Shown: positions 2,206 to 42,328 of the stretch, one piece after another
How the letters are laid out: the number at the start of each line of letters is the position of its first letter
How positions within the stretch are numbered: the first letter of the stretch is position 1
NCBI GenBank assembly: GCA_023266195.1
Contig: JAHFRP010000016.1
Span: forward strand, 1 to 43,578
DNA: 43,578 nt
DNA from: Sulfuricella sp.
GTDB lineage: Bacteria; Pseudomonadota; Gammaproteobacteria; Burkholderiales; Sulfuricellaceae
Reading direction: 5' to 3'
Position numbers and translations under genes: made by a program
Notes under the pieces: generated by a model
What the model was told of the DNA's origin: nothing
The model's database searches: none
What the model saw: only the letters and a program-made list of their open reading frames with translations

Positions 2206-2864
2206 TCCAGGGCGTATTGTTCGACCTCGACGGCACCCTGGCCGACACCGCGCCCGATCTCGGCTACGCCCTCAACCTCCAGCGCGAACGGCACGGCCTG
2301 GCGCCGCTGGCGCAGGAGATCATCCGCCCCTACGCCTCCCACGGCACGCGCGGGCTGTTCGAGATCGGCTTCGGCATGGCGCCGGGAGACGCGCGCTTCG
2401 ACGTCATGCGCGAGGAATACCTGGAGCTCTACACCGCCAACCTGTGCCGCCACACCCGTCTGTTTCCCGGCATGGGCGAACTGCTCGATGCGCTGGAAGA
2501 GCGAAAAATCCACTGGGGCGTGGTCACCAACAAGCCGGCGCGCTTCACCCTCCCCCTCATGGAGCAGCTCGAACTGCTCGACCGCGCCGCCAGCATCGTC
2601 AGCGGCGACACTTGTCCCCACCCCAAGCCCCACCCCGAACCGCTGCTCACCGCAGCCCGCGAACTCGCCGTCCCGGCGCAGCATTGCCTGTATGTGGGCG
2701 ACGCCGAACGCGACATCGAGGCGGCGCGCGCCGCCGGCATGCCCGCGCTGATCGCCGACTACGGCTACCTCGGCGCCACCGACCGCCCTGAAACCTGGGG
2801 CGCACAGGGCCGCATCGGCGCGCCGCAGGACATCCTCGCCTTTCTGGCCCTCTCCGGCGCATAG
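2202..2864 (+). CDS. gph: Phosphoglycolate phosphatase (HAD superfamily)
   Basis: A 220-residue haloacid dehalogenase-type phosphatase of the Gph/PGP group. It hydrolyses 2-phosphoglycolate, a product of DNA 3'-end repair or of Rubisco oxygenation. HAD motif I is [11 protein letters not shown], with the nucleophile Asp8 and Asp10. Motif II is VVTNKP, the conserved Lys lies in HPKPHPEPL, and motif IV is [14 protein letters not shown]. The small alpha-helical cap between motifs I and II fits the family. The start overlaps the ubiG stop. The stop codon TAG (2862-2864) is the first three bases of an inverted repeat, so the last residues may have been set by insertion of that repeat. Confidence 0.9.
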
Positions 2865-2940
2865 GTCGGTTCAAGCGCAGCGGAACCGACGCTCCGCTTC
2901 TTGCCGGGTGTGTCGGTTCCGCTGCGCTTGAACCGACCTA
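2862..2940. repeat. Inverted repeat family A, copy 1
   Basis: Two perfectly complementary 29-base arms (2862-2890 and 2912-2940) are separated by 21 bases. Each arm starts TAGGTCGGTTCAAGCGCAG when read inward. The left arm supplies the TAG stop of gph. The hairpin may also act as a terminator or mRNA-end stabiliser, although no T-run follows. A second copy with identical arms lies at 42099-42183, and a degraded piece near 29390-29425. Confidence 0.9.
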
Positions 2941-3019
2941 CCTGCCTGAATTGTCTATACTGATTTCTGCATTGAACCCATGACGTGGCCCTGCCCCCAT
3001 GGGACAGCGGAGGAAGAAA

Positions 3020-4018
3020 ATGGACAGCGTGGATATGGAAGTGCTGCAGAAATGCCTGCACTGGCAAAACGACGGCCACCGCGTGGCGCTTGCCACGGTG
3101 GTCAAGACCTGGGGCTCGTCCCCGCGCCAGATTGGCTCCCTGCTCGCCATACGCGACGACGGCCTGCTCGCGGGATCGGTTTCCGGCGGCTGCGTCGAGA
3201 CGGATTTGATCGAACGCATGCGCACGGTGCCGACCACCCACCCGGAGGTGCTGAGCTACGCCAATTCAACCGATGAATGCAGCCGTTTTCGCCTGCCTTG
3301 CGGCGGCACGCTGCAACTGGTCCTCGAACCGGCGCCGCAAAAGCTCATGCTGCAAGCCATCCTGGATGCCATCACCCACCACCGACTGATCGGCCGCCGC
3401 CTCGACTTGGCCAGCGGCCACGCCACGCTTTACACGCCGCAAACGGATGAAACCACGCGGTTCGTCGGGTTGACGCTGACTTCCGTGCACGGGCCGCGCT
3501 GGCGGCTGCTGATGATCGGCGCCGTCCAGACTGCACGCTGCCTGGCGCAAATCGCACAAGCCCTGGATTACCAGGTATCGGTGTGCGATCCGCGCGAGGA
3601 ATACCGCAAGGCCTGGAGCATCGAATGCGCCGAACTGGTGCCCGGCATGCCGGACGAGGCTGTAAGAGCCTTCGTGCCCGATGTCCACAGCGCGGTGGTG
3701 ACACTCAGCCACGATCCGAAGATCGACGACCTGGCCTTGCCGGAAGCGCTCAAATCGCCCGCGTTCTATGTCGGGACACTGGGCTGCCGCGGCAGCAACG
3801 CCAAGCGGCGCGAGCGGTTGCGGCAGCTCGACCTCACCGAAGGCGACATCGGCCGCCTGCATGGCCCGGTGGGCCTGCCCATCGGCAGCCATACCCCGCC
3901 GGAAATCGCCGTGTCCGTCATGGCCGAACTGACCGCGGCGCGCCACGGCATCGAACTTGGCATCGCGCCCGCGGCAAGGGAAAACATGATTTCGCTCTCG
4001 CACCTGGCCGTGTCCTGA
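3020..4018 (+). CDS. XdhC/CoxI-family protein (molybdenum-cofactor maturation type)
   Basis: A 332-residue XdhC-family protein. Family members bind sulfurated molybdenum cofactor and deliver it to xanthine dehydrogenase or CO dehydrogenase-type enzymes. The N-terminal XdhC/CoxI signature is seen in ATVVKTWGSSPRQIGSLLAI and SVSGGCVE. The C-terminal Rossmann-like domain includes the family motif LGCRGSNAKRRERL and the run GPVGLPIGSHTPPEIAVS. I chose the ATG at 3020 over the in-frame ATG at 2999 because GCGGAGGA (3008-3015) is then a well-spaced ribosome binding site. No xanthine dehydrogenase-type gene is in the window. The nearby molybdoenzyme is of the DMSO reductase family and normally uses other chaperones, so the client of this protein is unknown. 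Confidence 0.85.
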   Translation: MDSVDMEVLQKCLHWQNDGHRVALATVVKTWGSSPRQIGSLLAIRDDGLLAGSVSGGCVETDLIERMRTVPTTHPEVLSYANSTDECSRFRLPCGGTLQLVLEPAPQKLMLQAILDAITHHRLIGRRLDLASGHATLYTPQTDETTRFVGLTLTSVHGPRWRLLMIGAVQTARCLAQIAQALDYQVSVCDPREEYRKAWSIECAELVPGMPDEAVRAFVPDVHSAVVTLSHDPKIDDLALPEALKSPAFYVGTLGCRGSNAKRRERLRQLDLTEGDIGRLHGPVGLPIGSHTPPEIAVSVMAELTAARHGIELGIAPAARENMISLSHLAVS

Positions 4019-4233
4019 CCGAATGAGGCTAGCGAGGCGGCATCCGCGAGGAGTGGCCGCAAGCTGCACTCCGACTTTCTATCTACTAAAGTCGATGAAA
4101 GATCGTATGTCCCCGCCGCGAGCGGCAGCCAACCCTCTCTCCAACTCTCTGATGGAACTACTAGCCATTCGACTAGGCTGGCAAACTACGCCAGCCAAGT
4201 CGCTGGTTATCCCAAAGGGAGAGAGGGCAATCG

Positions 4234-4271
4234 TCCCCTCTCCCGCTTGCGGGAGAGGGTTAGGGAGAGGG
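4234..4271. repeat. Family D repeat, intergenic copy
   Basis: A short hairpin CCCTCTCCCGC/GCGGGAGAGGG followed by TTAGGGAGAGGGC. The same unit occurs inside two genes, at 22932-22994 and 39733-39795. Those two copies carry an additional upstream part that is not clear here. Confidence 0.75.
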
Positions 4272-4341
4272 CTGCTGCTCGCACGGGCGAGAAAAAAATA
4301 CAAACAACCGGGGAGCTGACGAACGACGAGGAGAACAATCC

Positions 4342-4473
4342 ATGTACTACATGATATTTACGTCGCACCCCGCAGGCGACAGAACCATGCCTTCGGAAAC
4401 ACGCGGTGTTTCTCCGTGGCTGGGATTTTCTTCGCGTCTTCGCGCCTTTGCGGTTCGACTTTTCGCGGGGTAA
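4342..4473 (+). pseudogene. Possible remnant of a small gene (43 codons)
   Basis: An ATG at 4342 is preceded by GAGGAGAAC at good ribosome-binding distance. The frame begins MYYMIFTSHP and runs 43 codons to TAA. The first ten residues look like a genuine protein start, but the rest is encoded by repeat-like DNA. It may be the surviving 5' end of a gene whose body was lost when repeats accumulated. It could also be chance. I cannot name a family. Confidence 0.2.
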
Positions 4474-4509
4474 TCATCGGCGTTGCGGGCTGACGGCCAG
4501 GCCCCATCC

Positions 4510-4673
4510 TAGGATCCTGTCAAGGTATTCCCCCCTTTGAAAAAGGGGGGTTAGGGGGGATTTAGCAACGTCGCTACTGGCTGCCACCGTTAAATCCCCC
4601 TCAATCCCCCTTTTTCAAAGGGGGAGGCGGCCAGTCTTGCCGTATCCCGGTAATTCAACGTGACAGGCTCCTA
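4510..4673. repeat. Family C foldback element, copy 1
   Basis: A 164-base element with two internal hairpins (CCCCCCTTTGAAAAAGGGGGG type at each side) linked by complementary TTAGGGGGGATTTA / TAAATCCCCCTCAATCCCC arms. The outer ends are TAGGATCCTGTCA (4510-4522) and TGACAGGCTCCTA (4661-4673), which are complementary apart from a small internal difference. The right end provides the TAG stop codon of the hybE-like gene on the minus strand. Four other copies are present in the window. Confidence 0.85.
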
Positions 4674-5237
4674 GCGCCCGGTGCGGTGCCCGGCCAGGCG
4701 GCCGAAGAATTCGCGTCGCGACACTTCCTTTTGCCAGCCGCATTCGCGCTGTTGCTCTTCCATCACCCGGTCGCGGGTCTTGATCACCTCGTCCCAGGCA
4801 GCGAATACGGCGTCGGCGCTGGCGTAGCCTTCCATCGACTGCACCAGCGGCTGCAACAGGAAATGGCCGAGTTCCGGCAGGTAGTTGAGATGGGCCTTCT
4901 GCGTGCCGCCCAGGATGGTGAAATCGAGCGGCGGGCCGATCACCAGGAAGGGCGCGGCGCCGCGCTCAGCGGCGCTCCAGCCGGACGGAACGCGCAGGCC
5001 GGGGTCGCGTTCGGGCAGGAACACCCGCCCCATCATCCACGGCGTCAGCAGCAGGAACACGCACCAGCCGTCGCTGCGCCGAAAGGCGCGGACCTCCACC
5101 GGCAAACGGTGGTTGACCAGCCATTCGTTGCTGAAATATTTACGGTAAATGCCGTCGAAACAAGCGGTCGCCGCGGCCGCCACCGCCTGATCGTCGCCGG
5201 CAGGCAACGGCCCCAGCCGCCAGGCCGAATCACGCAT
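4671..5237 (-). CDS. HybE-family chaperone-like protein in the molybdoenzyme operon
   Basis: A 188-residue protein resembling HybE, a chaperone of [NiFe]-hydrogenase maturation. Visible similarity includes NEWLVNHRLPVEVRAFRR, the run GWCVFLLLTPWMMGRVFLPE matching the family's L.TPWFMN..LLP core, and a C-terminus RREFFGRLAG resembling the RRDFLRG tail of HybE. The start ATG at 5237 overlaps the torD stop (ATGCGTGA), so it is translationally coupled to the operon. No hydrogenase gene is in view. It may instead help assemble or proofread the molybdoenzyme, as TorD does. The TAG stop lies in the terminal arm of a family C repeat, so the C-terminus may have been reset. The family call is moderately sure; the function is inferred. 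Confidence 0.65.
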   Translation of the reverse strand: MRDSAWRLGPLPAGDDQAVAAAATACFDGIYRKYFSNEWLVNHRLPVEVRAFRRSDGWCVFLLLTPWMMGRVFLPERDPGLRVPSGWSAAERGAAPFLVIGPPLDFTILGGTQKAHLNYLPELGHFLLQPLVQSMEGYASADAVFAAWDEVIKTRDRVMEEQQRECGWQKEVSRREFFGRLAGHRTGR

Positions 5238-5781
5238 CGAACAGCCCCTGTAACTGCTCGCCGAGCTGCCGGTAAAGCCGCAGGCGGCTTTCCATCGCCA
5301 GCGTGGCGCCGAACCGGGGCGTCCACGGGGCGAGATGGTCCCGCCATAATTCCCGCAGCAGCTCGCCGCTGTGGCCGCAAGACTGCTCCAGCAGCCAGGC
5401 GGCGCATTCGAGCTGGGTGCCGAGATAATCCGGCGGCAATCCTTCGGCTTCCAAACCGGCGCGGCGATAGAGGTCGGCGAGCGAATCGCACGCGACGCCG
5501 AACATCGCCCCGCCCAAAAACGCCGATTCGTAAGGCGGACACGCGGTTTTCGGATGGCCGGAGATGAACAGCCGTGCATGCTCCGCCTGCCAATCCTCCA
5601 GCGGCGTGTCTTCGAGTTCGGCGAGGGATTCGCCGAGCCAGGCGTTTTCCCCGGCGAGTTCGCGCAGCACTTCCAGCGAATCGCTGCCGGGGCTGGCCAG
5701 GAGCCCGCCGAGCAGCCGCAGGGCATGCGGCTCGACGGCGACGGCGTCCGCGCTACCAGGGGTAGGCATAGACGCCGGCAT
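5230..5781 (-). CDS. TorD/DmsD-family molybdoenzyme chaperone
   Basis: A 183-residue all-helical cytoplasmic chaperone of the TorD family. These proteins bind the TAT leader and apo-form of DMSO reductase-family enzymes until the molybdenum cofactor is inserted. Supporting features are the helical run LRLLGGLLASPGSDSLEVL, EHARLFISG and CPPYESAFLGG (family pattern Y..LF.G....P.YES.), and length typical of the family. The start overlaps the end of the nrfD-like gene by 29 bases; a second ATG four codons in (5769) would shorten this. Its position after the catalytic, FeS and membrane subunits is the usual place for a dedicated chaperone. Confidence 0.8.
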   Translation of the reverse strand: MPASMPTPGSADAVAVEPHALRLLGGLLASPGSDSLEVLRELAGENAWLGESLAELEDTPLEDWQAEHARLFISGHPKTACPPYESAFLGGAMFGVACDSLADLYRRAGLEAEGLPPDYLGTQLECAAWLLEQSCGHSGELLRELWRDHLAPWTPRFGATLAMESRLRLYRQLGEQLQGLFDA

Positions 5782-19220: not shown

Positions 19221-19248
19221 GCGGTGATAGGCACAATCGGGGGCTCGC

Positions 19249-19322
19249 AGGTCGGGCACCCCGTGCCCGACAAATCCCCTCCGACAGTCCATCAAACCGT
19301 CGGGCACGGCGTGCCCGACCTA
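19249..19322. repeat. Inverted repeat family B, copy 1
   Basis: Each arm is itself a short hairpin of the type GTCGGGCACCCCGTGCCCGAC. The two arms are complementary to one another and are separated by about 28 bases. The right edge supplies the TAG stop of capA (19320-19322, minus strand). It lies between convergent genes and may act as a two-way terminator. Confidence 0.85.
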
Positions 19323-20294
19323 CCTGTTCCTGCACAACCGGACCGCCTCGTCGCCGCTTTGCCCGCAAGGCGTGAGCGCGCCGGGAACGGGATGCGGCGT
19401 GCCTTCCGCGTCCATCTCGGCGGCCAGCGTATCCCAGCCGATCAGCCCCCGGCGGTCCACGGTCAGGCGCAGCAGCCAGCCGTGCCGGGTTTCGGCCGTT
19501 TCGAAACCGTCGAAGACGAAATTCCCCAGGCTGTAGACGATCAGCCGCCCCTTGTAGTATTCGGCGCCCTGCGTGACGTGGGGATGGCCGCCAATCACCA
19601 TGGCGGCCCCGGCGTCGATCATGGTGCGCGCCAGCTGTCGTTGGCGCTCGCTGGGTTCCGGCTCGCGCTCCCAGCCCCAGTGCATGAAGGGAATCACCAG
19701 GTCGGCGCCCGCCGCACGCGCGGCGCGGATATCCGCGATCACTTGGCTGTCCTCGCTCCAGGCCACGCCCGCCCAGTCGGGGCCGGCCTCGAACGCGCGC
19801 GGCTTGAATTCGTCGTAGCCCAGCACGGCGATGCGCAGCCCCTTGCGCTCGATCCACAGCGGCGCATGGGCATGCGCCAGGTCGCGCCCGCCGCCGAACG
19901 CGGCAATGCCGTTTTGGTCGAGCAGGGACAAGGTTTGCAGGAACGCCGCCTGGCCGTAATCGCCCGAGTGGTTGTTGGCGACGCCCAGCGCGTCGAAGCG
20001 CCCGCGCAGGACGTTCATCACCCGCGGATGGGCGCGGAAGGTGTAGATTTTGTGGTCGATCGCCCGGCCGACCGTGGCCACGGAACATTCCAGGTTGCCG
20101 ATACGGTAATCGGCGGCGGCAAGCGCGGCGGCGAACGGCGCCAGCGGATCGCGCCCGGACGCGATCGCCCTGCCCGGCCCATCGTCCAGCATCACGTCGC
20201 CGGCGAAGATCAGCCGCACCGGCTCGGCCTGGGCGCAGCCCGCCGCCAGCAGCAGCGCCGCGAGCCAACATTTCAGGATCGCGGACGCGCTCAT
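19320..20294 (-). CDS. CapA-family protein (poly-gamma-glutamate capsule synthesis type)
   Basis: A 324-residue exported protein of the CapA/PGA_cap family with a calcineurin-like phosphoesterase fold. Motifs are FAGDVMLDDGPG, IGNLECSVA, GVANNHSGDYG and IGGHPHVTQGAEYY, the last being the typical metal-site region. The N-terminus is a signal sequence; LLAAGC could be a lipobox, so the protein may be membrane-attached. CapA in Bacillus helps make poly-gamma-glutamate, but many proteobacterial members stand alone and are uncharacterised. The start overlaps the preceding small secreted gene (ATGA, 20291-20294). The TAG stop is part of a family B repeat. Confidence 0.85.
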   Translation of the reverse strand: MSASAILKCWLAALLLAAGCAQAEPVRLIFAGDVMLDDGPGRAIASGRDPLAPFAAALAAADYRIGNLECSVATVGRAIDHKIYTFRAHPRVMNVLRGRFDALGVANNHSGDYGQAAFLQTLSLLDQNGIAAFGGGRDLAHAHAPLWIERKGLRIAVLGYDEFKPRAFEAGPDWAGVAWSEDSQVIADIRAARAAGADLVIPFMHWGWEREPEPSERQRQLARTMIDAGAAMVIGGHPHVTQGAEYYKGRLIVYSLGNFVFDGFETAETRHGWLLRLTVDRRGLIGWDTLAAEMDAEGTPHPVPGALTPCGQSGDEAVRLCRNR

Positions 20295-20713: not shown

Positions 20714-20807
20714 CGGAAAACCCGCCCGTTGGATTGGAAAAAGCCAGTATAGGGGCGCCTTTGGCGGGGGGCAACCGGCCGCGTCGAAATTGCGATGCGG
20801 CCGATGT

Positions 20808-20886
20808 AGGTCGGGCACCCCGTGCCCGACGGTTCGATGAAAGATTCGCGGAACGCCGGATTGTCGGGCACGGGGTGCCCGACCTA
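20808..20886. repeat. Inverted repeat family B, copy 2
   Basis: Arms of the TAGGTCGGGCACCCCGTGCC type face each other around a 33-base centre. This copy lies between divergent genes (20713 minus, 20970 plus), so it cannot be acting as a terminator for either. It may lie within their promoter regions. Confidence 0.85.
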
Positions 20887-20969
20887 CTTGCGATTGGCCG
20901 CCGGCGCCTGCTATCGTTATGGGCTTGACGAACCGCCCGCCAGCCTTTGATCCCCGATTGAGAGATACC

Positions 20970-25729: not shown

Positions 25730-25738
25730 ATCAAGCCG

Positions 25739-25809
25739 TAGGTCGGGCACCCCGTGCCCGGCAAATCTCCGCCCACCATCAAGCCGTCGGGCACGGGGTG
25801 CCCGACCTA
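25739..25809. repeat. Inverted repeat family B, copy 3
   Basis: Arms of the family B type around a 27-base centre. It lies ten bases after family C copy 4, so the two families are stacked. The DUF2892 gene starts 31 bases downstream. Confidence 0.85.
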
Positions 25810-25839
25810 CACGCTGTCGCTTGGCCAGAGGAGGCGAAC

Positions 25840-26067: not shown

Positions 26068-26087
26068 CCCACAGATCTTTTCCGACC

Positions 26088-26109
26088 GTCGGGCACGGGG
26101 TGTCCGACC
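26088..26109. repeat. Family B half-element
   Basis: Only one arm is present (GTCGGGCACGGGGTGTCCGA). It ends three bases from the stop codon of the penicillin-binding protein gene on the minus strand. It may be what remains of a full copy. Confidence 0.7.
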
Positions 26110-26112
26110 TTG

Positions 26113-29100
26113 CTACTCGCTCAACTCCTTGCCCCGCGCCGGCGCTTCTTCCTCCGGCGCGGGGACGTCTTTCCCGCCCTCGTCCGGCTCTTCTTCCCGC
26201 TCGGGCTGCTCGATCTCGGCCGGCTCTTTTTGCGCCGGCGCGGCCGCTTTGTAAACCTGCTCGGGCACAGGCTGTGCGGTGTCGGTGAGCGGCTTCAGGT
26301 CGGGCAGCAGATGCTTCAGGATTTGCGCCGGCAAGGCCGAGGTGAATTCGTAGTCGGCGGCGTCGGCGCCGGGGACGAAGGCGGTCAGCGTGCCGAAGAA
26401 GCGGTCGCCGATGAAGAACACGAAGGTGGCGGAGCGGTTCACCGCGCGCGACTCCTTGATCACGCCCGCGCCGGAGAAGGTGACGTAGCGCTGGTCGCCG
26501 GTGCCGGTCTTGCCGCCGATCTGGATCTGCGTGCCGTCTTCGCGCACGATGGCGCGGGACAGCCGCGAGGCGGTGCCGTGCTCCACCACGTCGATCAGCA
26601 CGCCGCGAATCGCCGCCGACAGCTCCGGCGCGAACAGGCGCTCGCCCGGAACCGGCGCGCGCTCGACGGTGGTGTCGAACGGCGTGCCGGCGCCGAAGCG
26701 CATGCGCTCGATGGTGACGGTGGGCAGCCGGACCCCGTTGTTGAGGATGATGCCCATCAGCTCGGCGAGCGCGGCGGGCCGGTCGGCGGAACTGCCGATG
26801 GCGGTGGCGAGCGACGGCACCAGGGTGTCGAACGGGTAGCCGAGGCGCTTCCACTTGCGCTGGATTTCAAGGAAGGCCTCGACTTCGAGCAGGCTGCGGA
26901 TACGCTTGTCCTGCGCGTTCTTGTGCACGGTCTTGAGCAGCCAGTCATAGACCTCGATGCGCTCCCTGCCGCTGGCGGCGATCACGTCGCGGTACTGCGC
27001 GGCGGGATGGCCGGCCAGGTAGCCGACCAGCCACAGCTCCAGCGGGTGGACATGGGCCAGGTAGCCCTGGTCCGCCAGCGAGAATTTGCCCGGCCCGTAG
27101 CGGTCGTACATCGCCCGCAGATCGTGCTGGTCCGAGGCGTTGAAGCCGGGCAGGCGCGCTTCCATGAATTCGCCGAACTGGGCGAGCGTCGCCTGCGGAT
27201 AAAGATAGCGGTAGGCCGCGGCGATCCGGTGCGGCGACGGGCGCACGCCTGCGAAGAACAGGTCGATTCGCTCGCCGGCCGCCTTGCCCTTGTATTTCGT
27301 GTAAAAACGGCCGATGAATTCCCGGCTCTCCCGGTCCGCGAAGCGCCGGAGATATTCCGCCCGGTGCGGGTCGTCCGCGTCCTTCAGGATCAGCGCGGAC
27401 GAACCCGGAATCTGGAACATGTAATAGCGCACGACGTCGCGCATCAGGCGGATGAAGACGAGGTTGACGGAATTGCGGACGGCCTCGCGCACGCTCATGA
27501 CCCGGCCGTCGTCCTCGTGCTTGAAGTTGTGGAACACGTGCACGCCGCCGCCGGTAAAGAACATCTCCGCCGGGCTGGCGGAATACCGGCGCTCCAGGGC
27601 GGCGTCGAGCATGGCGGCGAGGCTCTTGTCGTCGCTTTGCGCCAGGTAGTCGATGGCCCACCGGCTGAGCTTGTCGTTCGGCTCCACTTCGACCTGGCGC
27701 AGCGCGTCGGGCGACAGGTCCGCATACTGGCCGTGCAGCTTATCGACGATTTCCAGGTAGGTCACCAGCGTCCGCAGCTTGGCGGTGGAGCCGAGATCGA
27801 GCTTGGTGCCCTGGTTGATGTCGAACGGCTGGTCGAAATTGTCGGCCTGGATGCGCAGCTTGGCGCCCTGCGGGGTGAGCTCGTGCAGCGTGAAGCTGTA
27901 GATGATCTTGTCCAGATCGTCGTCCGCGTTCAGCAGGTGATAGCCGTAGAGGCCGGCGGCGCGCGCGTATTCGGGCTTTTTCAGATCGTGCAGCGCGGCG
28001 GTGGCCTTCTCCTGCATCGCGCCGTTGAGCGCGCTTTGCACCGAAAGATCGAGCCGGTCCACGTCGTACAGGCGGGACAACCCAAGCAGGGATGCGAGCT
28101 GCACGCGCACGGCGTTGGCCGCCTTGTGGGCGGCGTAGCCGCCGTTCTCTTCCGGCACCGCGGCGGTGAGGAAGCGCAGCCGCGCCTTCAGCGCCGCGTC
28201 CCTCAGGGCGGGCGAAATCACGCCGGCCTGCGCCAGCACCCGCAGATGGCTGTCGGTCAGCTCCTCCAGCGCGCGGTGGTCTTTCCCCAGGTAAGCAGAG
28301 GGCCGACGCTGGGCGATCATCAGGCTCAACACGTGCTTGTAGGCGCTGGCGAATTCGGCGAGATCGGCTCCGCCCGGCGGCTGCGCACGCAAGATGCGGT
28401 TGATGTAATTAAAATCCCAGCCGTACCAGGCCCACAGACCGTCGCCGATGCCATTCACCTCGCCGAACCCCGGCACGGCGGCGAGCGGCACCGTGTTGAG
28501 GTAGGCGAGCGCGATCTGCTTGCGTGCCGGCAGCGTGTTCTCCCCGCCCAGATAAGCGCGCACCGAGGCGGATTCCATCTGTTGCAGCTTGTCGCCGGCG
28601 GTGAGGGTCATGCCGTTGGGAGAATGCCGGTATTTCTCGATCTGCGTGGCCAGCGTGCTGCCGCCCGGCACCTCGTGCTCCGGGTGGACCAGCTGGATCA
28701 GCTTGTCGAGCACCGCCTGCCCCAGGCGGGCCCAGTTCACGGCGGGGTTCTTCTCCGGATGGGCCGAATCGAGCAGGTTGCGGTTCTCGATATACAGCAG
28801 GCTGTCCACCACCAGCGGCGGAATCGCCTCGAAATTCTCATAGACCCGCCCCGGCGAAATCGCCCGGAACAGCGGCTGACCGCTGAAATCGGTGATCGCC
28901 AGCCCGGCCTGGTTTTTCTCCCGGTAGGGGATGAACAGCCCCCTATCGGCCAACTGCTGCATGCGCAGCGAGATCCTCGCTTGGGCGCTCACCTGGAAGC
29001 CTTCGCCGGCAAGGCGCGGCAGCATCGACGGCAACAGGCTGTAACCCATGCGCTGGTCATACGGCCCGGCCTGCGGAACGCGCAGCTGGCGGTTCTGCCC

Positions 29101-29253
29101 GTTCTCCATCCGCCAACCGAGATTCCTGGCGAGCCCCGACAGGTAGCGCGCCTGGAGCGCCGACGTCTCAACCTCGCGAAAAACCAGGAAGCCCAGGACG
29201 GCGAGAAAAAGAAACCCCAGAACGGAAACCGCGATCAGGAAGCGCCTGAGCAT
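26113..29253 (-). CDS. Divergent class A penicillin-binding protein (transglycosylase/transpeptidase)
   Basis: A 1046-residue bifunctional peptidoglycan synthase anchored by one N-terminal helix (FLIAVSVLGFLFLAVLGFLV). The GT51 glycosyltransferase part has the altered signatures YIENRNLLD (usual form ED..F) and PGGSTLATQIEKYRHS (usual form GGSTITQQ). The transpeptidase motifs are complete: S489-T-A-K492, S595-V-N597 and K915-T-G. It is longer than typical PBP1 proteins. The C-terminus is a Pro/Glu/Lys-rich, probably disordered tail of about 60 residues. ATG 29253 is preferred; a TTG seven codons earlier (29274) is possible. The glycosyltransferase catalytic Glu is kept, but its altered surroundings raise the question of activity. 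Confidence 0.82.
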   Translation of the reverse strand: MLRRFLIAVSVLGFLFLAVLGFLVFREVETSALQARYLSGLARNLGWRMENGQNRQLRVPQAGPYDQRMGYSLLPSMLPRLAGEGFQVSAQARISLRMQQLADRGLFIPYREKNQAGLAITDFSGQPLFRAISPGRVYENFEAIPPLVVDSLLYIENRNLLDSAHPEKNPAVNWARLGQAVLDKLIQLVHPEHEVPGGSTLATQIEKYRHSPNGMTLTAGDKLQQMESASVRAYLGGENTLPARKQIALAYLNTVPLAAVPGFGEVNGIGDGLWAWYGWDFNYINRILRAQPPGGADLAEFASAYKHVLSLMIAQRRPSAYLGKDHRALEELTDSHLRVLAQAGVISPALRDAALKARLRFLTAAVPEENGGYAAHKAANAVRVQLASLLGLSRLYDVDRLDLSVQSALNGAMQEKATAALHDLKKPEYARAAGLYGYHLLNADDDLDKIIYSFTLHELTPQGAKLRIQADNFDQPFDINQGTKLDLGSTAKLRTLVTYLEIVDKLHGQYADLSPDALRQVEVEPNDKLSRWAIDYLAQSDDKSLAAMLDAALERRYSASPAEMFFTGGGVHVFHNFKHEDDGRVMSVREAVRNSVNLVFIRLMRDVVRYYMFQIPGSSALILKDADDPHRAEYLRRFADRESREFIGRFYTKYKGKAAGERIDLFFAGVRPSPHRIAAAYRYLYPQATLAQFGEFMEARLPGFNASDQHDLRAMYDRYGPGKFSLADQGYLAHVHPLELWLVGYLAGHPAAQYRDVIAASGRERIEVYDWLLKTVHKNAQDKRIRSLLEVEAFLEIQRKWKRLGYPFDTLVPSLATAIGSSADRPAALAELMGIILNNGVRLPTVTIERMRFGAGTPFDTTVERAPVPGERLFAPELSAAIRGVLIDVVEHGTASRLSRAIVREDGTQIQIGGKTGTGDQRYVTFSGAGVIKESRAVNRSATFVFFIGDRFFGTLTAFVPGADAADYEFTSALPAQILKHLLPDLKPLTDTAQPVPEQVYKAAAPAQKEPAEIEQPEREEEPDEGGKDVPAPEEEAPARGKELSE

Positions 29254-29621
29254 GTTCTTGCTAATTTTTATCAAATCGGTATACCCGCTATTTCCGCACA
29301 GGCTGAATTATAGAGGCGGCCACCCAGAATAGTGTGGCAACTAGCCGCCACATCGCCTCAATCCCTCTTTTTCAAAGGAGGAGCGGCCCAGATCGGTTCG
29401 AGCGGTAGCGGAACCGACGATTCCTCCCGCAGCTTACGGGACACGCCATCCCACACAAGGTTAAATATAGCCGAAATCGACCTCCAGTGTTACCGCATCC
29501 CCGCAGAAAAAGTGCATCTTTCATCCATCATTACGTGCCGCCGCGGAAATGATAGAATTCCGCAAAAACGATAGGATTTTCAAAAAAGTTGCAACCGATC
29601 GGCAAGCAGGGGAGAAAAACA
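29254..29621. other. Spacer with repeat remnants between divergent genes
   Basis: This 368-base gap separates the divergent penicillin-binding protein and FIST genes and must hold both promoters. It contains a worn piece of family C (about 29356-29384, TCAATCCCTCTTTTTCAAAG) and a worn half of family A (about 29391-29425, GGTTCGAGCGGTAGCGGAAC). No gene is seen. Confidence 0.6.
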
Positions 29622-33800: not shown

Positions 33801-33971
33801 AGCCTGAAGCTCAAAGTCATCGCCGAAGGCGTGGAAACCGAGGAACAGCTGGCGTTTCTGAGCCAGCACGGCTGCAACGAAATCCAGGGCTATTACTTCA
33901 GCCGCCCGGTGCCGCCGGAAGAGGTGGCAAGGATGCAGGGCGAGCGGCGCGTGCTGGCAGTAGACGCCTGA
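30897..33971 (+). CDS. GAF/PAS-containing diguanylate cyclase/phosphodiesterase (GGDEF-EAL)
   Basis: A 1024-residue cytoplasmic cyclic-di-GMP signalling protein. The order is a GAF-like region (about 1-165), PAS (about 180-300), a second GAF (about 305-460), PAS (about 470-590), GGDEF and EAL. The cyclase motif GGDEF is intact at 671-675 and the phosphodiesterase motif EAL at 799-801, followed by conserved IDDFGTGYSSLSQLK. An RxxD inhibitory site four residues before GGDEF is not evident. The PAS motifs (YFEAMWRTILAGQVWSGEIV; RKDGSDFPAS) may bind small ligands. No transmembrane segment is seen. It could switch between making and degrading c-di-GMP. Confidence 0.92.
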   Translation: MNRERVIMAVLYDMAMVIGGEVNLEPLLTRTLQRLLYHTSFPAGAVFLNLPPAGGDAAKTVSARLELALGDFELARHRGEALPLPAALVEGPASLVEDPALIGSLPCRPQRYGVCLRLPVGARGAILLLAPELPDGDLPIEQIFQPVMANLSRAILLCHHNEAYANSLIADRDRARSGQARFRAALDTSDDIVFLIDPQAMTFLDFNRSAESQTGYAQADLLGMGPLDLSPTTDRAELTALFGELAAHSRDGVELDAPIRRKDGSDFPASIRLNLYTGAAGEKSVIAVARDITQHRQAEAISYLFHEVDRRLLEGLAPEKIPAYVCERLAELFGYPLVWLGAKEADGTVGVRAAAGAALPYLAGLRVRWDDTPEGRGPTGNAIRSGSAWAKRPGGADYPPWHERAKAYGIHASIALPVTVAGATFGALNLYAGLADAFEPQTVLRLEDVAARVGIVLRIAHDQQRLRLQGAAMEAAANAIFITDRRGLIEWVNPAFCRLSGHALAEVVGKQPSLLRSGRHDAAYFEAMWRTILAGQVWSGEIVNRRADGGLYVSNQTITPTLDEKGEISHFISIQEDVTARKETESRLRYMQEFDVLTGLPNRTILLERLGQAVAQAARTEGLVAVLQLDLDRFKNINDTLGQALGNRLLQEVAGLLEACMSAGDIVSRQGGDEFAAMLTGLGSSLDAALAAQRILDAFARPIALEGHELFVTPSIGIALYPLDGTEPNELLKDAEAAMFRAKEQGGNAYQFFTADMTARTADLLELESSMRKALEQKEFQLHYQPQVDLASGEIIGVEALARWRHPERGMVPPAHFIPVAEGTGLILPLGAWVMHTACAQAKAWQDAGHTPIRMAVNLSARQFRKENLITLVDEVLQATGLAPQWLELEITESAVMEDPAAAAQTLRELKKRGIQIAIDDFGTGYSSLSQLKHFPLDKLKLDQSFVREIPASANDGQIALAIISMAQSLKLKVIAEGVETEEQLAFLSQHGCNEIQGYYFSRPVPPEEVARMQGERRVLAVDA

Positions 33972-33973
33972 TG

Positions 33974-34043
33974 TAGGTCGGGCACCCCGTGCCCGACAAA
34001 TCTCCGCCCGCCGCAAACCGTCGGGCACAGCGTGCCCGACCTA
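33974..34043. repeat. Inverted repeat family B, copy 4
   Basis: Family B arms around a 24-base centre, between the convergent GGDEF/EAL and histidine kinase genes. The left edge TGTAGGTCGG starts just after the TGA stop of the GGDEF/EAL gene. The right edge is five bases from the kinase stop. Confidence 0.85.
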
Positions 34044-34048
34044 CACGA

Positions 34049-36529
34049 TCACTCCGCCCGCACCAGGCTCACCCGCACCGTGGTGCCCTTGCCCGGCGCG
34101 CTGCTGATTTCGGCCTTGCCGCCGACCAGGGCGGCGCGTTCCTGCATCCCGATCAGGCCGAATGATTTGGCCTTGCGAGTGGCCGGGTCGAAACCCTTGC
34201 CGTTGTCTTTCACCGTCAGCATCAGCGTTCCGTTCCATTCGCTCAGCGTAACGTTGACCTTGCTCGCTTCGGCGTGCTTCACCACATTGGTCAGCGATTC
34301 CTGGACGATGCGGTAGATCGTGGCCGCCTGGTTGGCATCGATGGCCGGTTCCACGTCGGGCAGCCGGGCGTCGCACTCGATGCCGGTGTTACGCTGGAAT
34401 TCCTGCACATATTTTTCGATGGCGATATTAAGCCCCACTTCGTCCAGCAGGGACGGCCGCAACGCGGCGACGGTATGGCGCATGGCCTTGATGCCGTCGG
34501 CCACCAGTTTTTCCAGCTTGTTCACTTCCGCCAGCAGCTGCGGCATTTCCGCCGGGATGTCCACCGCCAGCAGCGAAACGTTGATGTTGAGCGCGGCCAG
34601 CACCCCCCCCATTTCGTCGTGCAATTCGCGCGCGATGCGCTTTTGTTCTTCTTCCCGCACCACTTCCAGGTGGGTGGCCAGCTGTTGCAGCTCCTGGTTC
34701 GATTCGTTGAGTTTCTCCTCCGCCAGATGGCGTTCGGTGATGTCCATCGCGACGCCGAGTATGTGCATCGTGCCGTCGGGCTGCGCCATCGGCACTTTGG
34801 CGACTGTCAGCCAGCGCTCCTTCCCGCCGAGGAAATTGTGGGCGACGAATGCGAAAGGGCGGCCGGTGGCGATCACTTCGCGGTCCGCCCGCAAATGCGG
34901 TTCGAACTCCTCTTTGCTCTGGAACAGCGCGCCACTGTCCAATCCAATCATGTCCTGCGGCGTAGAGCCATGCAGCGCCGCCATCGCCCGGTTGACCAGC
35001 AGGAACCGGCCATCGGAGTCCTTGACGAAGATATAATTCGGGTCGGTGTCGATCACCTGGCGCAGAAATGCCCTTTGCCGCTCCAGTTCGATTTCCACCC
35101 GTTTTCGTTCGGTGACATCGACCAGGTTGAACACCAGCCGCTCGACCTTGCCGCCGGTTCCCTTGATCGGGTGAAGCGTCCAGTCCCAGTAAGTGACGCC
35201 CCATTCCGGGTGGTCGGGGAATACGAATGGCTTGGCGAAGACCACATAGGGTCTGCCGGTTTCCACCACCTCCCGGAAAATCGCCTGATTTTCGGCGTGG
35301 GGATACAGGGCGAAATGGTTCTTGCCGATGAAAAATTCCGGCGGATGGGCGCAAGCGCGGGCGTAGGCCTGGTTCACCCGGATGAAATTGAAGTCGGCGT
35401 CGAGATAGACCACCATGGTGTGGATATTGGAGAACATCGCTTCCAGCTGGTCATGGGCTTCGCGCAACGCCTCCGCTGCATCGCGTTGCGCCTTGAGGTG
35501 CTCGATGCGCGCCTGGCTCCCGGTGAACCAGAGAAAGAACACCGCGCCGCCGAAAGCGGCAAAAGCAAAAACCAGCCCCGCCACCCAGCGTTCCAGCGTG
35601 TTGATTCCGGCAAGAAGTTCGGCCTTGTCGATTTTCGCCACCATCAGCCAGGGAGTGCCGGCAATCTCGCGCACCACGGCGACCACGGGAACGCCACGGT
35701 AATCGGCGCCCTCGGCGGTGTTAAACTCGCCGCGCAGCCACAGGGCGGGCGGCAGTTTCGATGTCGCCACCGGAATACGCAAGGACAGCGCGGCGCCCTT
35801 CCTGTGCCGCAGTTCGTTGAGGAACAGGATGTTGCCGCCCTCGCGCCGCACCAGCACCGTTTCCGCGCTCGGGCTGGCGGTAGGCCAGGTCTGGATCAAC
35901 GGGAAGAGGAAGGAATCGGGATCGGTGGAGAACAGCAACGCGCCGACGACTCGCTCTCCAGCCTTGTCGGCGACCACCAGCGGCGCGGCAAAGCCGAGTT
36001 CGATGGCGCCGTCCTTGCCGTGCCGGTGGAAATCGATAAACAGCACCTTGCGGCTTTGCATCGCCGCCATGGCCATTTCGCGGTCTTCCTCAACCGCCAG
36101 GCTCCTGCCGTTGGTCGAAATTCTGAAGTTTCCCTGCGCATCGAGCAGGGAAACGTCCTTGCAGCCTTGCGCTTCCTGCAGGTGAATGCCGGCCATGACC
36201 TTCAGGATCCGCTGCTTCCGATCGTCGTCCGGCATGCCTTCGCGCAGCCACAGATCGACTTCGACGGCAAGCAGGGAGCCGTGCATGTAGTACTCCGCCC
36301 GCCTCCGCTGGGCTTCCTGCCAGGCCGCGATTTGTGCGGTTTTCAAATCGGCGATGGCGCCGAGTTCCTGGATTTTTTCCTGCGTGAAGGATTCCTTGTT
36401 TTGCTCGAACGTGCCAAAGCCTGCCAGACCGATCAGGCAGGCAAACAGCGCGAACAACAACAAGTGAAGCCCGATGGGCATGGTGTAAAGCGGGGGAGGA
36501 CCGTCTCTCGAATCTGATGCAAACACCAT
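34049..36529 (-). CDS. Membrane sensor histidine kinase, NarX/NreB-like, with two PAS domains
   Basis: An 826-residue sensor kinase. A helix (about 17-39) leads to a periplasmic Cache-like domain (about 45-315), then a second helix (VAGLVFAFAAFGGAVFFLWF), two PAS domains (about 365-490 and 495-620), a coiled-coil linker, HisKA_3 (phospho-acceptor in RIARELHDEMGG) and HATPase_c (ESLTNVVKHAEA, DNGKGFDP, GLIGMQERA). HisKA_3 kinases pair with NarL-type regulators, none of which is next to it here. ATG 36529 follows GGAGG at good distance; a start at 36595 lacks this. A TATAAT at 36646-36651 (minus strand) may be its -10. The ligand is unknown. Confidence 0.88.
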   Translation of the reverse strand: MVFASDSRDGPPPLYTMPIGLHLLLFALFACLIGLAGFGTFEQNKESFTQEKIQELGAIADLKTAQIAAWQEAQRRRAEYYMHGSLLAVEVDLWLREGMPDDDRKQRILKVMAGIHLQEAQGCKDVSLLDAQGNFRISTNGRSLAVEEDREMAMAAMQSRKVLFIDFHRHGKDGAIELGFAAPLVVADKAGERVVGALLFSTDPDSFLFPLIQTWPTASPSAETVLVRREGGNILFLNELRHRKGAALSLRIPVATSKLPPALWLRGEFNTAEGADYRGVPVVAVVREIAGTPWLMVAKIDKAELLAGINTLERWVAGLVFAFAAFGGAVFFLWFTGSQARIEHLKAQRDAAEALREAHDQLEAMFSNIHTMVVYLDADFNFIRVNQAYARACAHPPEFFIGKNHFALYPHAENQAIFREVVETGRPYVVFAKPFVFPDHPEWGVTYWDWTLHPIKGTGGKVERLVFNLVDVTERKRVEIELERQRAFLRQVIDTDPNYIFVKDSDGRFLLVNRAMAALHGSTPQDMIGLDSGALFQSKEEFEPHLRADREVIATGRPFAFVAHNFLGGKERWLTVAKVPMAQPDGTMHILGVAMDITERHLAEEKLNESNQELQQLATHLEVVREEEQKRIARELHDEMGGVLAALNINVSLLAVDIPAEMPQLLAEVNKLEKLVADGIKAMRHTVAALRPSLLDEVGLNIAIEKYVQEFQRNTGIECDARLPDVEPAIDANQAATIYRIVQESLTNVVKHAEASKVNVTLSEWNGTLMLTVKDNGKGFDPATRKAKSFGLIGMQERAALVGGKAEISSAPGKGTTVRVSLVRAE

Positions 36530-38882: not shown

Positions 38883-39686
38883 CTATCCCGGCGCTTTCGG
38901 GGCGATCGTGCAGACCGCCTTGGGCGCGTCGATGCGCAGCACGATGGATTCCCGCACGGCGAAATTGAAGTGGGCGGAATCGGGGAAGGTGAAATCCACC
39001 GTGAGATCCTCGCCGATCAGGAGCGTGCCGGCCTCCGGCGCGACCAGCACGGCGCCCTGGATGGCGGTCTTGTGGATGCCGCCGGTGCACAGCTCCTTGA
39101 GGTGATCGATTTGCAGCAGGTCGGACCCCTCCGGATAGCGCCGGAACAGATTATTGTAGAGCCGGGGCTCCAGCGCCAGCGCGTAGGGGCCGTGAAAGCG
39201 CGCCGCATCGAGCAGGGTGACGGCGGCGAGCACGTCGCGCAGCACCTGTTCCACGTCGGTCCAGTCGCCGCCTTCCAGGTGGTTGCGGCCCTCGACGGTG
39301 CACAACCCGGCCAGGCCGAATTCGGCATCGCCCAAATAGATCAGCTCTTCCTCGCGCGCGGCCACTTCCAGCGCGGACTGGCCCAGCGGGCTGAGATCAA
39401 GCGGCTGCCCGGTCTCGGTATAGGCGGCGACGCGCCGCCGGCCGAGGGCGAAATGGCGAAAAATCAGGGGAACCGGGATAGTGCGCGAAATGATGGTGGT
39501 GGCGCCGTGGCTGGCGTGCTGGCGCTGGTCGTCGTTGCCCACCGGCGCGGCCAGGTAGCCCAGCCCGAACGGCCCGTCCACCGGCAAAAAGCGGCGCGCG
39601 GTCAGCGCCTTGCGCGCCTCGGCCACGGCCATTTGCTCCATGCGCGCGAGCAGCGCGGCGTCGAAGGGCATATTGATATTGTTCAC
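38883..39686 (-). CDS. Encapsulin shell protein (family 1)
   Basis: A 267-residue protein with the HK97-type fold that self-assembles into a hollow compartment. Family signatures are PLDLSPLGQSALEVAAREEE followed by LIYLGDAEFGLAGL, GPYALALEPRLYNNLFRRYP, and the shell-wall strand VAPEAGTLLIGEDLTVDF. The upstream gene encodes its ferritin-like cargo. I prefer GTG 39686, seven bases after AAAGGAG; the GTG two codons earlier (39692) is too close to that site. The ribosome site lies within the last codons of the cargo gene, so production of shell and cargo is linked. The compartment probably stores iron and limits oxidative damage. Confidence 0.9.
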   Translation of the reverse strand: MNNINMPFDAALLARMEQMAVAEARKALTARRFLPVDGPFGLGYLAAPVGNDDQRQHASHGATTIISRTIPVPLIFRHFALGRRRVAAYTETGQPLDLSPLGQSALEVAAREEELIYLGDAEFGLAGLCTVEGRNHLEGGDWTDVEQVLRDVLAAVTLLDAARFHGPYALALEPRLYNNLFRRYPEGSDLLQIDHLKELCTGGIHKTAIQGAVLVAPEAGTLLIGEDLTVDFTFPDSAHFNFAVRESIVLRIDAPKAVCTIAPKAPG

Positions 39687-39688
39687 GA

Positions 39689-40183
39689 TCACGCTCCTTT
39701 CATGGCACCGATGGTCAGGCGCGGTCTCATGCGAGCCTCGCGAAGCGAGCCCCCGTCCCCCTCTCCCGTAGGCGGGAGAGGGCTAGGGGAGAGGGAGACG
39801 GCCATGGCACCTCGCTGTTTCATAAAGCCGGACAGCGATTCGCCGAAGCTATTCGGGGCCGCCGCCTCGCCGCCCTCCTTGCCGGTCGCCTTCTTCTCCG
39901 CCAGGGTGATGTCGCCCTGGCTGAACAGGTAGACGCGCAGGATCTCGTCCAGCCGCGGCGTGCGGCGCCGCAGCCATTCCAGCACCATCGCCGCGTGCTC
40001 CATCTCCTCGTGCATGTTGTGCAGCAGCACCGCGCGCAACCCGTCGTCGATGCAGGCGTCGGCGCGCTGTTGATACCAGTCCACCGCCTCCAGCTCCTCC
40101 ATCAGGGACAGCAGGGCTCGGTGGGAATCCACCGTCGCCGGGGCCAGTTTTTCTTCGTTTTCGTGCAGGCCTTCGTGTGCCAT
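39689..40183 (-). CDS. Encapsulated ferritin-like protein (EncFtn cargo)
   Basis: A 164-residue cargo protein that oxidises iron inside the encapsulin shell. The helical pair SLMEELEAVDWYQQRADACI and HNMHEEMEHAAMVLEWLRRR carries the EncFtn iron ligands (Glu29/30/32, Glu59/60, His63). The C-terminal LTIGAMKGA fits the encapsulin cargo-loading peptide pattern (LTVGSLRG type). Between fold and peptide lies a linker, SLSPSPLPPTGEGDGGSL, encoded by a family D repeat. AAAGGAAG precedes ATG 40183. The stop lies two bases before the encapsulin start, so the genes form an operon. The fold is typical; the repeat-derived linker is unusual. Confidence 0.88.
   Translation of the reverse strand: MAHEGLHENEEKLAPATVDSHRALLSLMEELEAVDWYQQRADACIDDGLRAVLLHNMHEEMEHAAMVLEWLRRRTPRLDEILRVYLFSQGDITLAEKKATGKEGGEAAAPNSFGESLSGFMKQRGAMAVSLSPSPLPPTGEGDGGSLREARMRPRLTIGAMKGA
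39733..39795. repeat. Family D repeat inside the encapsulated ferritin gene
   Basis: It matches the copy in the MFS gene (22932-22994), including the leading CTCGCGAAGCGAG hairpin and the CCCTCTCCCG/CGGGAGAGGG hairpin. It keeps the frame open in the linker before the cargo-loading peptide. Direction relative to the host gene is opposite to that in the MFS gene. Confidence 0.8.
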
Positions 40184-40475
40184 GGTGGGCTTCCTTTCAG
40201 GCTATTGCTCATACTCTCAATATAGTGCATGGCCCGAAGGCTGTTGCGCTTGACCGCCCGGTTCGCGCGTCGGGAACCGCCGTGGCGGGCGGCGCGGTTG
40301 AAAAAATCGAGTGCCGCGGCAACCGGATTGGCGTTGCGGGAAGCGTCGGCTTGAGATTAATCGTGCGAACAGATCCGCTCCCACAGGCCGGACGCCGGGA
40401 ATCGTTCCGTACCGACCGCCGAGTTGCGGTAAAATGTGCGATTCCCTTCTCGCCAGTTTGTTCATAGAAAATCAT

Positions 40476-42101
40476 ATGTTGCGTCTGACCGAAGTCAAGC
40501 TTCCCCTCGATCATGCCGAAAGCGCGCTCAAGTCCGCCATCCTCAAGCGGCTGGGCATCCCGGAACAGGAGCTGGTCGGCTATAGCGTCGCCCGCCGCGG
40601 CCACGACGCCCGCAAGCGCGATGCCATCGTGTTCATCTATACGCTGGACGTCGAGGTGAAGAATCAGGCGGCGACTCTCAAGCGCCTAAGAAACGACAAG
40701 CACGTCTCGCTCGCGCCGGACACGCGCTACCATTTCGTCGCGCAGGCGCCGGAGGGTCTGGCAACGCGCCCGGTGGTGATCGGCACCGGTCCGGCCGGGC
40801 TGTTCGCCGGGTTGATCCTGGCGCAGTCCGGCTTTCGCCCGATCGTCCTGGAGCGCGGCAAATCGGTGCGCGAGCGCACCAGGGACACCTTCGGTCTGTG
40901 GCGGCAGGGCAAGCTCGATCCCGAATCCAACGTGCAGTTCGGCGAAGGCGGCGCCGGCACTTTCTCCGACGGCAAGCTGCACAGCCAGATCAAGGACCCC
41001 GGCCACCGCGGCCGCAAAGTGCTGGAGGAATTCGTCGCGGCCGGCGCGCCGCCTGAAATCCTCTATGTGAGCAAGCCGCACATCGGCACCTTCCGGCTGG
41101 TGAGCATGGTGGAAAAAATGCGCGCCACGATCCAGGCGCTGGGCGGCGAGATCCGCTTCCAGAGCCGGGTGGACGACATCGACATCGAGCACGGCCAGGT
41201 GCGCGGCGTGGTGCTGGCCGACGGCGAACGCATCAATACCGACCATGTCGTGCTGGCGGTCGGCCACAGCGCGCGCGACACCTTCCAGATGCTCTACGAC
41301 CGGGGCGTGCAGACCGAGGCCAAGCCTTTTTCCATCGGCTTCCGCATCGAGCACCCGCAATCCCTGATCGACCGCTGCCGCTTCGGCGACCAGGCCGGCA
41401 ACCCGCTGCTCGGCGCGGCGGACTACAAGCTGGTGCATCACTGCGCCAACGGCCGCTCGGTCTACAGCTTCTGCATGTGTCCGGGCGGCACGGTGGTCGC
41501 CGCCGCGTCGGAGCCGGGCCGGGTCGTCACCAACGGCATGAGCCAGTATTCGCGCAGCGAGCGCAACGCCAACAGCGGCATCGTCGTCGGCGTCACGCCC
41601 GAGGATTTCCCCGGCGGGCCGCTCGCCGGCATCGAGTTTCAGCGCCAATGGGAAAGCCGCGCCTATGAGTTGGGCGGACACAACTACCAGGCGCCGGGGC
41701 AACTGGTGGGCGACTTCCTCGCCGGCAAGCCCTCCACCGCGTTCGGCTCCGTGCAGCCTTCCTACACGCCAGGCGTGCATCTCACCGATCTCGCCAGCGC
41801 CCTGCCGGATTACGCCATCGCCGCGATCCGCGAAGCGCTGCCCGCGTTCGACAAGCAGATCAAAGGGTTCGCCATGCACGACGCGGTGCTGACCGGGGTC
41901 GAGACCCGAACCTCGTCACCGGTGCGCATCACACGCGGCGACGACGGCCAGAGCGTGAACACGCGCGGCCTCTACCCCGCCGGCGAAGGCGCGGGCTACG
42001 CGGGAGGAATACTTTCCGCCGCGGTGGACGGCATCAGGATGGCTGAGGCGGTAGCACTCTGCATGATGCAAAACGAGGCTCCATCACCCCATTCAATGTA
42101 G
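40476..42101 (+). CDS. COG2509-type FAD-dependent dehydrogenase of unknown substrate
   Basis: A 541-residue flavoprotein of a widely conserved uncharacterised family. An N-terminal domain of about 90 residues (SALKSAILKRLGIPEQELVG, then ARRGHDARKRDAIVFIYTLD) precedes the FAD-binding loop VIGTGPAGLFAGLILAQSG. Family stretches are SNVQFGEGGAGTFSDGKLHS, CPGGTVVAAASEPGRVVTNG and the C-terminal LYPAGEGAGYAGGI. Length matches the family. ATG 40476 is chosen because upstream sequence does not read as this family; a TAAAAT at 40430-40435 may be the promoter -10. Its TAG stop is the first three bases of a family A repeat. The 292-base gap upstream (40184-40475) shows no gene. Confidence 0.82.
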   Translation: MLRLTEVKLPLDHAESALKSAILKRLGIPEQELVGYSVARRGHDARKRDAIVFIYTLDVEVKNQAATLKRLRNDKHVSLAPDTRYHFVAQAPEGLATRPVVIGTGPAGLFAGLILAQSGFRPIVLERGKSVRERTRDTFGLWRQGKLDPESNVQFGEGGAGTFSDGKLHSQIKDPGHRGRKVLEEFVAAGAPPEILYVSKPHIGTFRLVSMVEKMRATIQALGGEIRFQSRVDDIDIEHGQVRGVVLADGERINTDHVVLAVGHSARDTFQMLYDRGVQTEAKPFSIGFRIEHPQSLIDRCRFGDQAGNPLLGAADYKLVHHCANGRSVYSFCMCPGGTVVAAASEPGRVVTNGMSQYSRSERNANSGIVVGVTPEDFPGGPLAGIEFQRQWESRAYELGGHNYQAPGQLVGDFLAGKPSTAFGSVQPSYTPGVHLTDLASALPDYAIAAIREALPAFDKQIKGFAMHDAVLTGVETRTSSPVRITRGDDGQSVNTRGLYPAGEGAGYAGGILSAAVDGIRMAEAVALCMMQNEAPSPHSM

Positions 42102-42183
42102 GTCGGTTCAAGCGCAGCGGAACCGACAAACCGCCGCCGGCAATGGCCGCAATCGTCGGTTCCGCTGCGCTTGAACCGACCTA
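42099..42183. repeat. Inverted repeat family A, copy 2
   Basis: The same perfect 29-base arms as copy 1 (2862-2940), with a different 27-base centre. Identical arms and diverged centre suggest that the arms are conserved by function or by recent mobility. It supplies the stop of the COG2509-type gene. Confidence 0.9.
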
Positions 42184-42258
42184 CCCCACTGCTCGTCGAG
42201 GAAGAAATCATCCCGGTGAATATCGGCGATCATGATGCGGTTTATTGACCTGGCCCGC

Positions 42259-42328
42259 AGATCGGACACGCTGTGCCCGACAGTTTGAACGGTGGCGGGG
42301 ATTTGTCGGGCACGGGGTGCCCGACCTA
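42259..42328. repeat. Inverted repeat family B, copy 5
   Basis: The right arm is typical; the left arm is worn (AGATCGGACACGCTGTGCCC). The right edge provides the TAG stop of the aldolase gene (42326-42328, minus strand). It lies with family A copy 2 between convergent genes. Confidence 0.8.

Follow-up and report, generated by a model that had tools for sequence, protein, structure and literature searches.

Several genes in a 43,578-nucleotide stretch of Sulfuricella sp. (contig JAHFRP010000016.1 of assembly GCA_023266195.1; the window) end on a TAG that also forms the edge of a palindromic repeat, raising the question of how a repeated element comes to hold a gene's stop codon. An earlier interpretation made from the letters of the window, hereafter the sequence-only reading, had sorted the repeats into families A and B and proposed that gene ends receive or retain them as a combined stop codon and mRNA-end hairpin. 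We followed these repeats through the source assembly (3.12 Mb in 36 contigs, of which the window is one) and compared the genes that they stop with orthologues in a sister genome (G009). The answer we favor, with a probability of roughly 55%, is that family B elements land or survive with their tag exactly on the native stop of a gene, through a family-specific choice of site. This answer builds on four direct observations: the identity of the elements, the bias in frame and position, the unchanged length of most genes whose sister orthologue stops without a repeat, and the contrast between families A and B.

The edge shared by the two families, GTAGGTCGG, occurs in 218 exact copies genome-wide, 109 per strand. 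Family B (GTAGGTCGGGCAC) is present in 67 + 64 = 131 exact copies and family A (GTAGGTCGGTTC) in 28 + 26 = 54, while the 33 copies of GTAGGTCGG outside A and B include chance matches inside genes. For detailed analysis, 66 stretches around listed copies were merged with the window to give 683,032 bases, which cover 177 of the 218 exact copies and in which a home-made gene caller based on codon usage called 643 genes. A hairpin is present in 162 of these 177 copies; an inverted mate lies 36–130 bases away in 120 of the 177, and six more are single hairpins with a tag on each side. Copy-to-copy identity is 0.94 in family A and 0.95 in family B. The copies are extragenic, with just two of the 162 hairpinned copies lying within a called gene, both antisense, and six of the 162 sharing more than 6 bases with a called gene. 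Tags seldom begin with a base other than G (4 HTAGGTCGGGC against 107 GTAGGTCGGGC, and 1 HTAGGTCGGTTC against 54 GTAGGTCGGTTC, in the fetched stretches), and a non-G tag pattern, which does not cover family A, matched five times genome-wide. Within the window, TAGGTCGG occurs 12 times against a mean of 0.64 in shuffles; the inward-facing TAG edges described by the sequence-only reading are GTAG in 11 of these 12 copies, the copy at the gph-like gene departing from the pattern with ATAG. Since GTAG-tagged palindromes paired with inverted mates are the arrangement of known repetitive extragenic palindromic (REP) elements, REP doublets forming hairpins (REPINs) and bacterial interspersed mosaic elements of type 1 (BIME-1), we conclude that families A and B are GTAG-tagged REPs, mostly in head-to-head REPIN/BIME-1 pairs.

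To place each copy relative to genes, we measured x, the distance from the T of its tag to the first base of the nearest stop codon on the same strand. The tag is itself the stop (x = 0) in 28 of the 162 hairpinned copies, and in the sister genome, where 24 family B copies were found, x = 0 in 9 of the 21 hairpinned copies in the fetched stretches, with no read-through. Two further genes are stopped in this way: C8:19291, where the hairpin is imperfect (x = 0), and the gph-like gene, whose ATAG lies outside the pattern and which is the thirtieth. A single gene continues into an element in another frame (x = 38), so that 28 of 29 entries use the TAG where a random frame would give one-third (p = 9e-13); pooled over the two genomes the ratio is 37 to 1 (p = 6e-17). 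Position is as biased as frame. Because some near-zero values of x are impossible by sequence, the background density was set at x from -4 to -30, and those 27 positions together hold 30 family B genes, about one per position just downstream, against 27 at x = 0 alone. Genes thus stop on the repeat TAG far more often than random placement and frame would give, and the proposed tie of the elements to gene ends, by insertion or by retention, holds. Where genes converge on a family B element, at least one takes its stop from the element in 13 of 22 cases and both do so in 3 of 22 (C15:178948-179023, C8:206448-206625 and C15:265234-265325); at C8:206448 a second GTAG REP pair is nested in the B pair. 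A replicate in a further genome (G001) found two copies only of its family, GTAGGTTGGGTT.

The two families differ sharply in this behavior. Despite their common edge, stop use among hairpinned copies is 1 of 57 in family A and 27 of 104 in family B (p = 4e-5), the gph-like gene being a second family A stop that falls outside this count. Closeness to genes is alike, with 19 of 57 A copies and 30 of 104 B copies lying no more than 30 bases downstream of a stop, and among copies 0–30 bases downstream of a stop the tag serves as the stop in 1 of 20 for A and 27 of 57 for B (p = 4e-4). The bases flanking the tags also differ: C or T precedes GTAG in 65 of the 77 B copies away from stops, and the base at -2 is a purine in 46 of 57 A copies. 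The simplest reading of the contrast is that A and B have separate, family-specific preferences for insertion sites. Selection for a stop-plus-hairpin device, as in the sequence-only reading, does not predict that family A is almost unused despite the common TAG edge, since A should then serve equally well; family-specific insertion does predict it.

We then asked what the stop looks like where the sister genome lacks the repeat. Orthologues at 80% identity or more were available for 24 of the 29 repeat-stopped genes; the five left out are the REP-associated tyrosine transposase (RAYT) gene described below and C25:16752, both removed by a gene-score filter, C10:108456, excluded for low identity, and C15:265936 and C27:43283, which had no match in the loci compared. 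The orthologue of C10:108456 ends in GTAG without a repeat and is two residues longer. No repeat lies at the sister stop in 16 of the 24 genes, and of these 12 are equal in length to their orthologue (controls, 62/93), with the last residue kept in 10 of the 12 (controls, 52/62). Equal lengths at the control rate indicate that the repeat in these genes normally occupies a shared stop position, so the earlier statement that repeats supply the stops of genes is half right. Truncation as a general rule finds no support in genes whose sister copy lacks a repeat stop, given the 12 of 16 unchanged lengths, and a two-step history, in which a deletion removed the native stop between gene and element, is not favored, as it too would scatter the lengths. 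The repeat-free sister stops are TAG in six, TGA in five and TAA in five. G precedes the stop in 8 of the 12 equal-length orthologues against 18 of 62 controls (p = 0.017), and GTAG is already present in 4 of the 12 against 53 of 570 genes of the source genome (p = 0.020), figures that would favor capture of a native G-TAG.

GTAG REPs such as families A and B belong to a class whose movement is attributed to RAYTs, tyrosine transposases that act on single-stranded DNA. The T-A-G of the tag is an amber stop on the strand that enters the element. The match of family B tags to native stops most likely arises because insertion at an existing (G)TAG leaves frame and C-terminus intact, insertions in other frames being purged. 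The native GTAG itself may be the insertion target; other genes, with changed last residues, look as if the element had landed just inside the gene. In its most specific form, which we put forward tentatively, the family B transposase would use native amber stops (G-TAG) as insertion sites and the stop would become the recognition tag of the element. If so, the element would arrive at the one harmless place in a gene and be held there by the host's need for the TAG.

Several results weigh against this account. According to the available text of PMC8266576, TnpAREP cleaves at CT (or CA) and recognizes GTAG as part of the element, so that insertion at GTAG is not by itself predicted. The C/T preference of family B is weaker at stops (17/28, p = 0.015). 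TAG ends 6 of the 16 repeat-free orthologues, which is not clearly above the controls (21/93, p = 0.17), and in the reverse test, on genes with a repeat stop in the sister genome and none in the source genome, the repeat-free stop is TAG in one of five, length being equal in three of five. TAG is retained between the genomes in 10 of 22 control genes, and the enrichment test is weak because stop codons turn over this fast. Of the 24 repeat-stopped genes, 10 agree with their orthologue in both length and last residue, against 52 of 93 controls (p = 0.25); taken as a whole, repeat stops neither protect nor clearly harm the protein tail. Where both genomes have a repeat stop (n = 8, of which C15:265234 may be a comparison of paralogues), the last residue differs in all eight and the length in six. 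A clean empty site, which after an IS200/IS605-like insertion 3' of an existing tetranucleotide would still carry that tetranucleotide, was not seen, the spacers compared being too diverged, and alignment of empty-site flanks over 96 comparisons gave a lowest p of 0.01, about chance level; C8:54413 (p = 0.015) is the sole low-p case whose match begins at a native GTAG. Where elements lie a short way downstream of native stops the target is likewise unreadable, as in nearly all of the 21 genes compared the two genomes cease to match within a few bases of the stop. Across the loci compared between the source genome and G009 (L143-L162 and L168-L189), coding identity is about 90%, whereas most of the spacer sequence has been exchanged, in many cases for other GTAG REP families, and homology breaks off at or near the stop codon.

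Random landing followed by selection would account for part of this pattern. Here elements bringing their own GTAG would insert near gene ends in any frame, and the survivors, those with TAG in frame, would replace the native stop, often trimming or changing the tail. Recognition of GTAG as part of the element fits this course of events, as do the eight genes with a repeat stop in both genomes, none of which keeps both length and last residue (controls, 52/93; p = 0.002). The sister repeat in these eight belongs to family B, is B-like or comes from another GTAG family, and the eight look like separate events that rewrote the tail. The gene at C12:129030 also fits: it reads a B element in the wrong frame for 13 codons, while its sister gene stops within a few codons of the entry point, which shows that an element can remove a native stop without providing a substitute. 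This gene (C12:128310-129072), which by eye we take to be SURF1-like, thus encodes a protein with a REP-encoded tail of 13 codons. Nevertheless, random landing requires about 56-fold purging of the two other frames (28 to 1), predicts scattered lengths where 12 of 16 show exactly zero change, and predicts like behavior of A and B where a contrast was observed. We therefore regard it as unlikely to be the main route.

The device proposed by the sequence-only reading, in which selection keeps the elements as a stop codon joined to a protective or terminating mRNA hairpin, appears improbable. The predicted hairpins at the stops are very stable: of five pieces folded as RNA, four give long hairpins with energies between -57 and -72 kcal/mol, and the one that ends early, at 42270, reaches -22.3 kcal/mol. 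Stops shared by convergent genes, with at least one from 13 of 22 elements and two from 3, would suit such a device, and E. coli REPs whose hairpin is no more than 15 nt from a stop are reported to affect translation (Liang 2015, via PMC12306157), although there the stop is upstream of the hairpin and the available text makes no mention of an overlap between tag and stop. Yet family A folds equally well and hardly ever serves as a stop, and repeat stops are poorly conserved, with none in 16 of 24 sister orthologues and a different last residue in 8 of 8 where both genomes have one. A U-tract pattern of the intrinsic-terminator type was not found at 41900-42500, the sole stretch scanned, which contains two elements. 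The hairpin may plausibly act at mRNA ends, and the sequence-only interpretation overall is partly supported. Chance or a gene-calling artefact deserves next to no weight: although the caller was home-made and 2 of the 28 genes scored low (the RAYT gene at C15:265325, whose frame is backed by relatives, and C25:16752, a candidate gene of 64 aa), the frame test holds at 37 to 1 in two genomes and the window genes match Pfam families well above cut-off.

A candidate mover of family B is encoded between its own elements. A profile search found six Y1-transposase matches in the genome, one of them a RAYT of 155 aa at L005:1381-1848 (minus strand) that has B pairs on both flanks and a REP TAG as its own stop; it scores 23.6 bits against Pfam Y1_Tnp on the genome and 21.2 bits as the 155-aa protein, below the 23-bit cut-off. 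Two other Y1 loci are flanked by repeats, one by the GTAGGATGCGG family and one by the GTAGGAGCG family, and no family A copy was seen beside any of the six in flanks of up to 1.5 kb. Among 80 relatives of the family B transposase, kept from 271 found, the closest named one is in a Sulfuricella metagenome-assembled genome (88% identity), and four, from Sulfuricella and three cyanobacteria, stop at a GTAG hairpin. In the cyanobacterial loci (L231, L236 and L243) the RAYT gene likewise has its own REP downstream (GTAGGTTGGGTTGAA), and the TAG of this REP is its stop. At the family B locus itself (L005:1292-1995; C15, about 265.2–265.9 kb), three of the four outer TAGs of the two B pairs end genes, namely the upstream gene, the transposase and the convergent downstream gene; the upstream gene is putatively SpoVR-like and the downstream gene, judged by eye, putatively GGDEF-like.

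That the tag of a GTAG REP can act as a stop codon has been reported in general terms (Di Nocera et al. 2013, PMC3733652), in a section whose available text contains neither a frame statistic nor an orthologue comparison and which calls the stop opal, the correct term being amber. Its main text does not contain GTAGGTCGG, and among the papers listed by the literature searches it was the only one found to treat the GTAG tag as a stop, with no closer one seen. Families A and B resemble REPINs (PMC3116915) and BIME-1 (PMC2817692), as described in the available text of those papers, in consisting of two inverted REPs with a short spacer that spread extragenically as a unit; 'stop codon' and 'GTAG' are absent from the main text of PMC3116915. 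The family B locus matches the RAYT/TnpAREP arrangement (REPtron), a Y1 transposase gene bordered by inverted cognate REPs (PMC2817692, PMC8266576), and the available text of these papers does not mention amber stops as insertion sites. What is added here is the frame statistic, the orthologue test and the contrast of two families in one genome. The findings bear on site choice and site retention in REPINs: a tag with a second role as a stop would explain both why elements crowd at the ends of genes and why the tag is conserved, and the A/B contrast within one genome helps to tell a preference for certain insertion sites from selection. In annotation, gene ends that fall on a REP tag deserve to be accepted as such and not extended.

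Repeat elements of the window and the genes that adjoin them (folding energies are predictions; sister, G009)
Feature	Coordinates	Strand	Remarks
gph-like HAD hydrolase gene, family A TAG as terminus	2202..2864	+	Pfam
Family A REP pair, tag ATAG; TAG 2862-2864 (+) is the gph-like stop	2861..2941	+	fold of 2862-2941, -71.3 kcal/mol, z -13.1
Family C element, inverted TAGGAKCCTGTC at both bounds; TAG 4671-4673 (-) is the HybE-like stop	4510..4673	.	not a GTAG REP
Family B REP pair, far tag GCAG; TAG 19320-19322 (-) is the capA stop	19247..19323	-	fold -57.5 kcal/mol
capA-like (PGA_cap) gene	19320..20294	-	Pfam; sister orthologue of equal length, stop TGA
Family B REP pair, no stop role	20806..20887	.	
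Family B REP pair, no stop role	25738..25810	.	fold -57.3 kcal/mol
Degraded family B hairpin, tag CAAG	26078..26112	.	minus-strand gene stops right beside it
Family B REP pair flanked by convergent GGDEF/EAL and histidine kinase genes	33973..34044	.	
FAD-dependent protein (FAD-depend_C) gene	40476..42101	+	Pfam; sister orthologue 4 residues shorter, stop TAA
Family A REP pair whose TAG 42099-42101 (+) ends the COG2509-type FAD gene	42098..42184	+	fold -71.5 kcal/mol
Family B REP pair, one arm degraded; TAG 42326-42328 (-) is the fbaB stop	42257..42329	-	
fbaB-like (DeoC/LacD aldolase) gene	42326..43378	-	Pfam; sister orthologue of equal length, stop TGA

Within the window, the four A and B stops that the sequence-only reading had assigned to the gph, COG2509-type, capA and fbaB genes can be read directly from the sequence. 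Pfam matches above cut-off were obtained for the HAD hydrolase, FAD-dependent protein C-terminal domain, PGA_cap (CapA), DeoC/LacD aldolase and HybE families, as well as for the GGDEF/EAL and histidine kinase genes. The further claim that other copies begin within a few bases of a stop was borne out: the GGDEF/EAL stop (33969-33971) lies 1 base and the histidine kinase stop (34049-34051) 4 bases outside their B pair, before the GTAG, and a minus-strand gene at 26113-29274, a putative PBP by its earlier label, stops immediately before the degraded CAAG-tagged hairpin. The HybE-like gene does end on the TAG of a repeat arm, as had been noted, but that arm belongs to a separate repeat, TAGGAGCCTGTC, in which the base before the TAG is C and which is not one of the GTAG elements. 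Family C (TAGGAKCCTGTC, frequently extended by GGACTT) is a distinct repeat with 22 matches in the fetched stretches, of which three double as stop codons and one is entered by a gene that is still reading.

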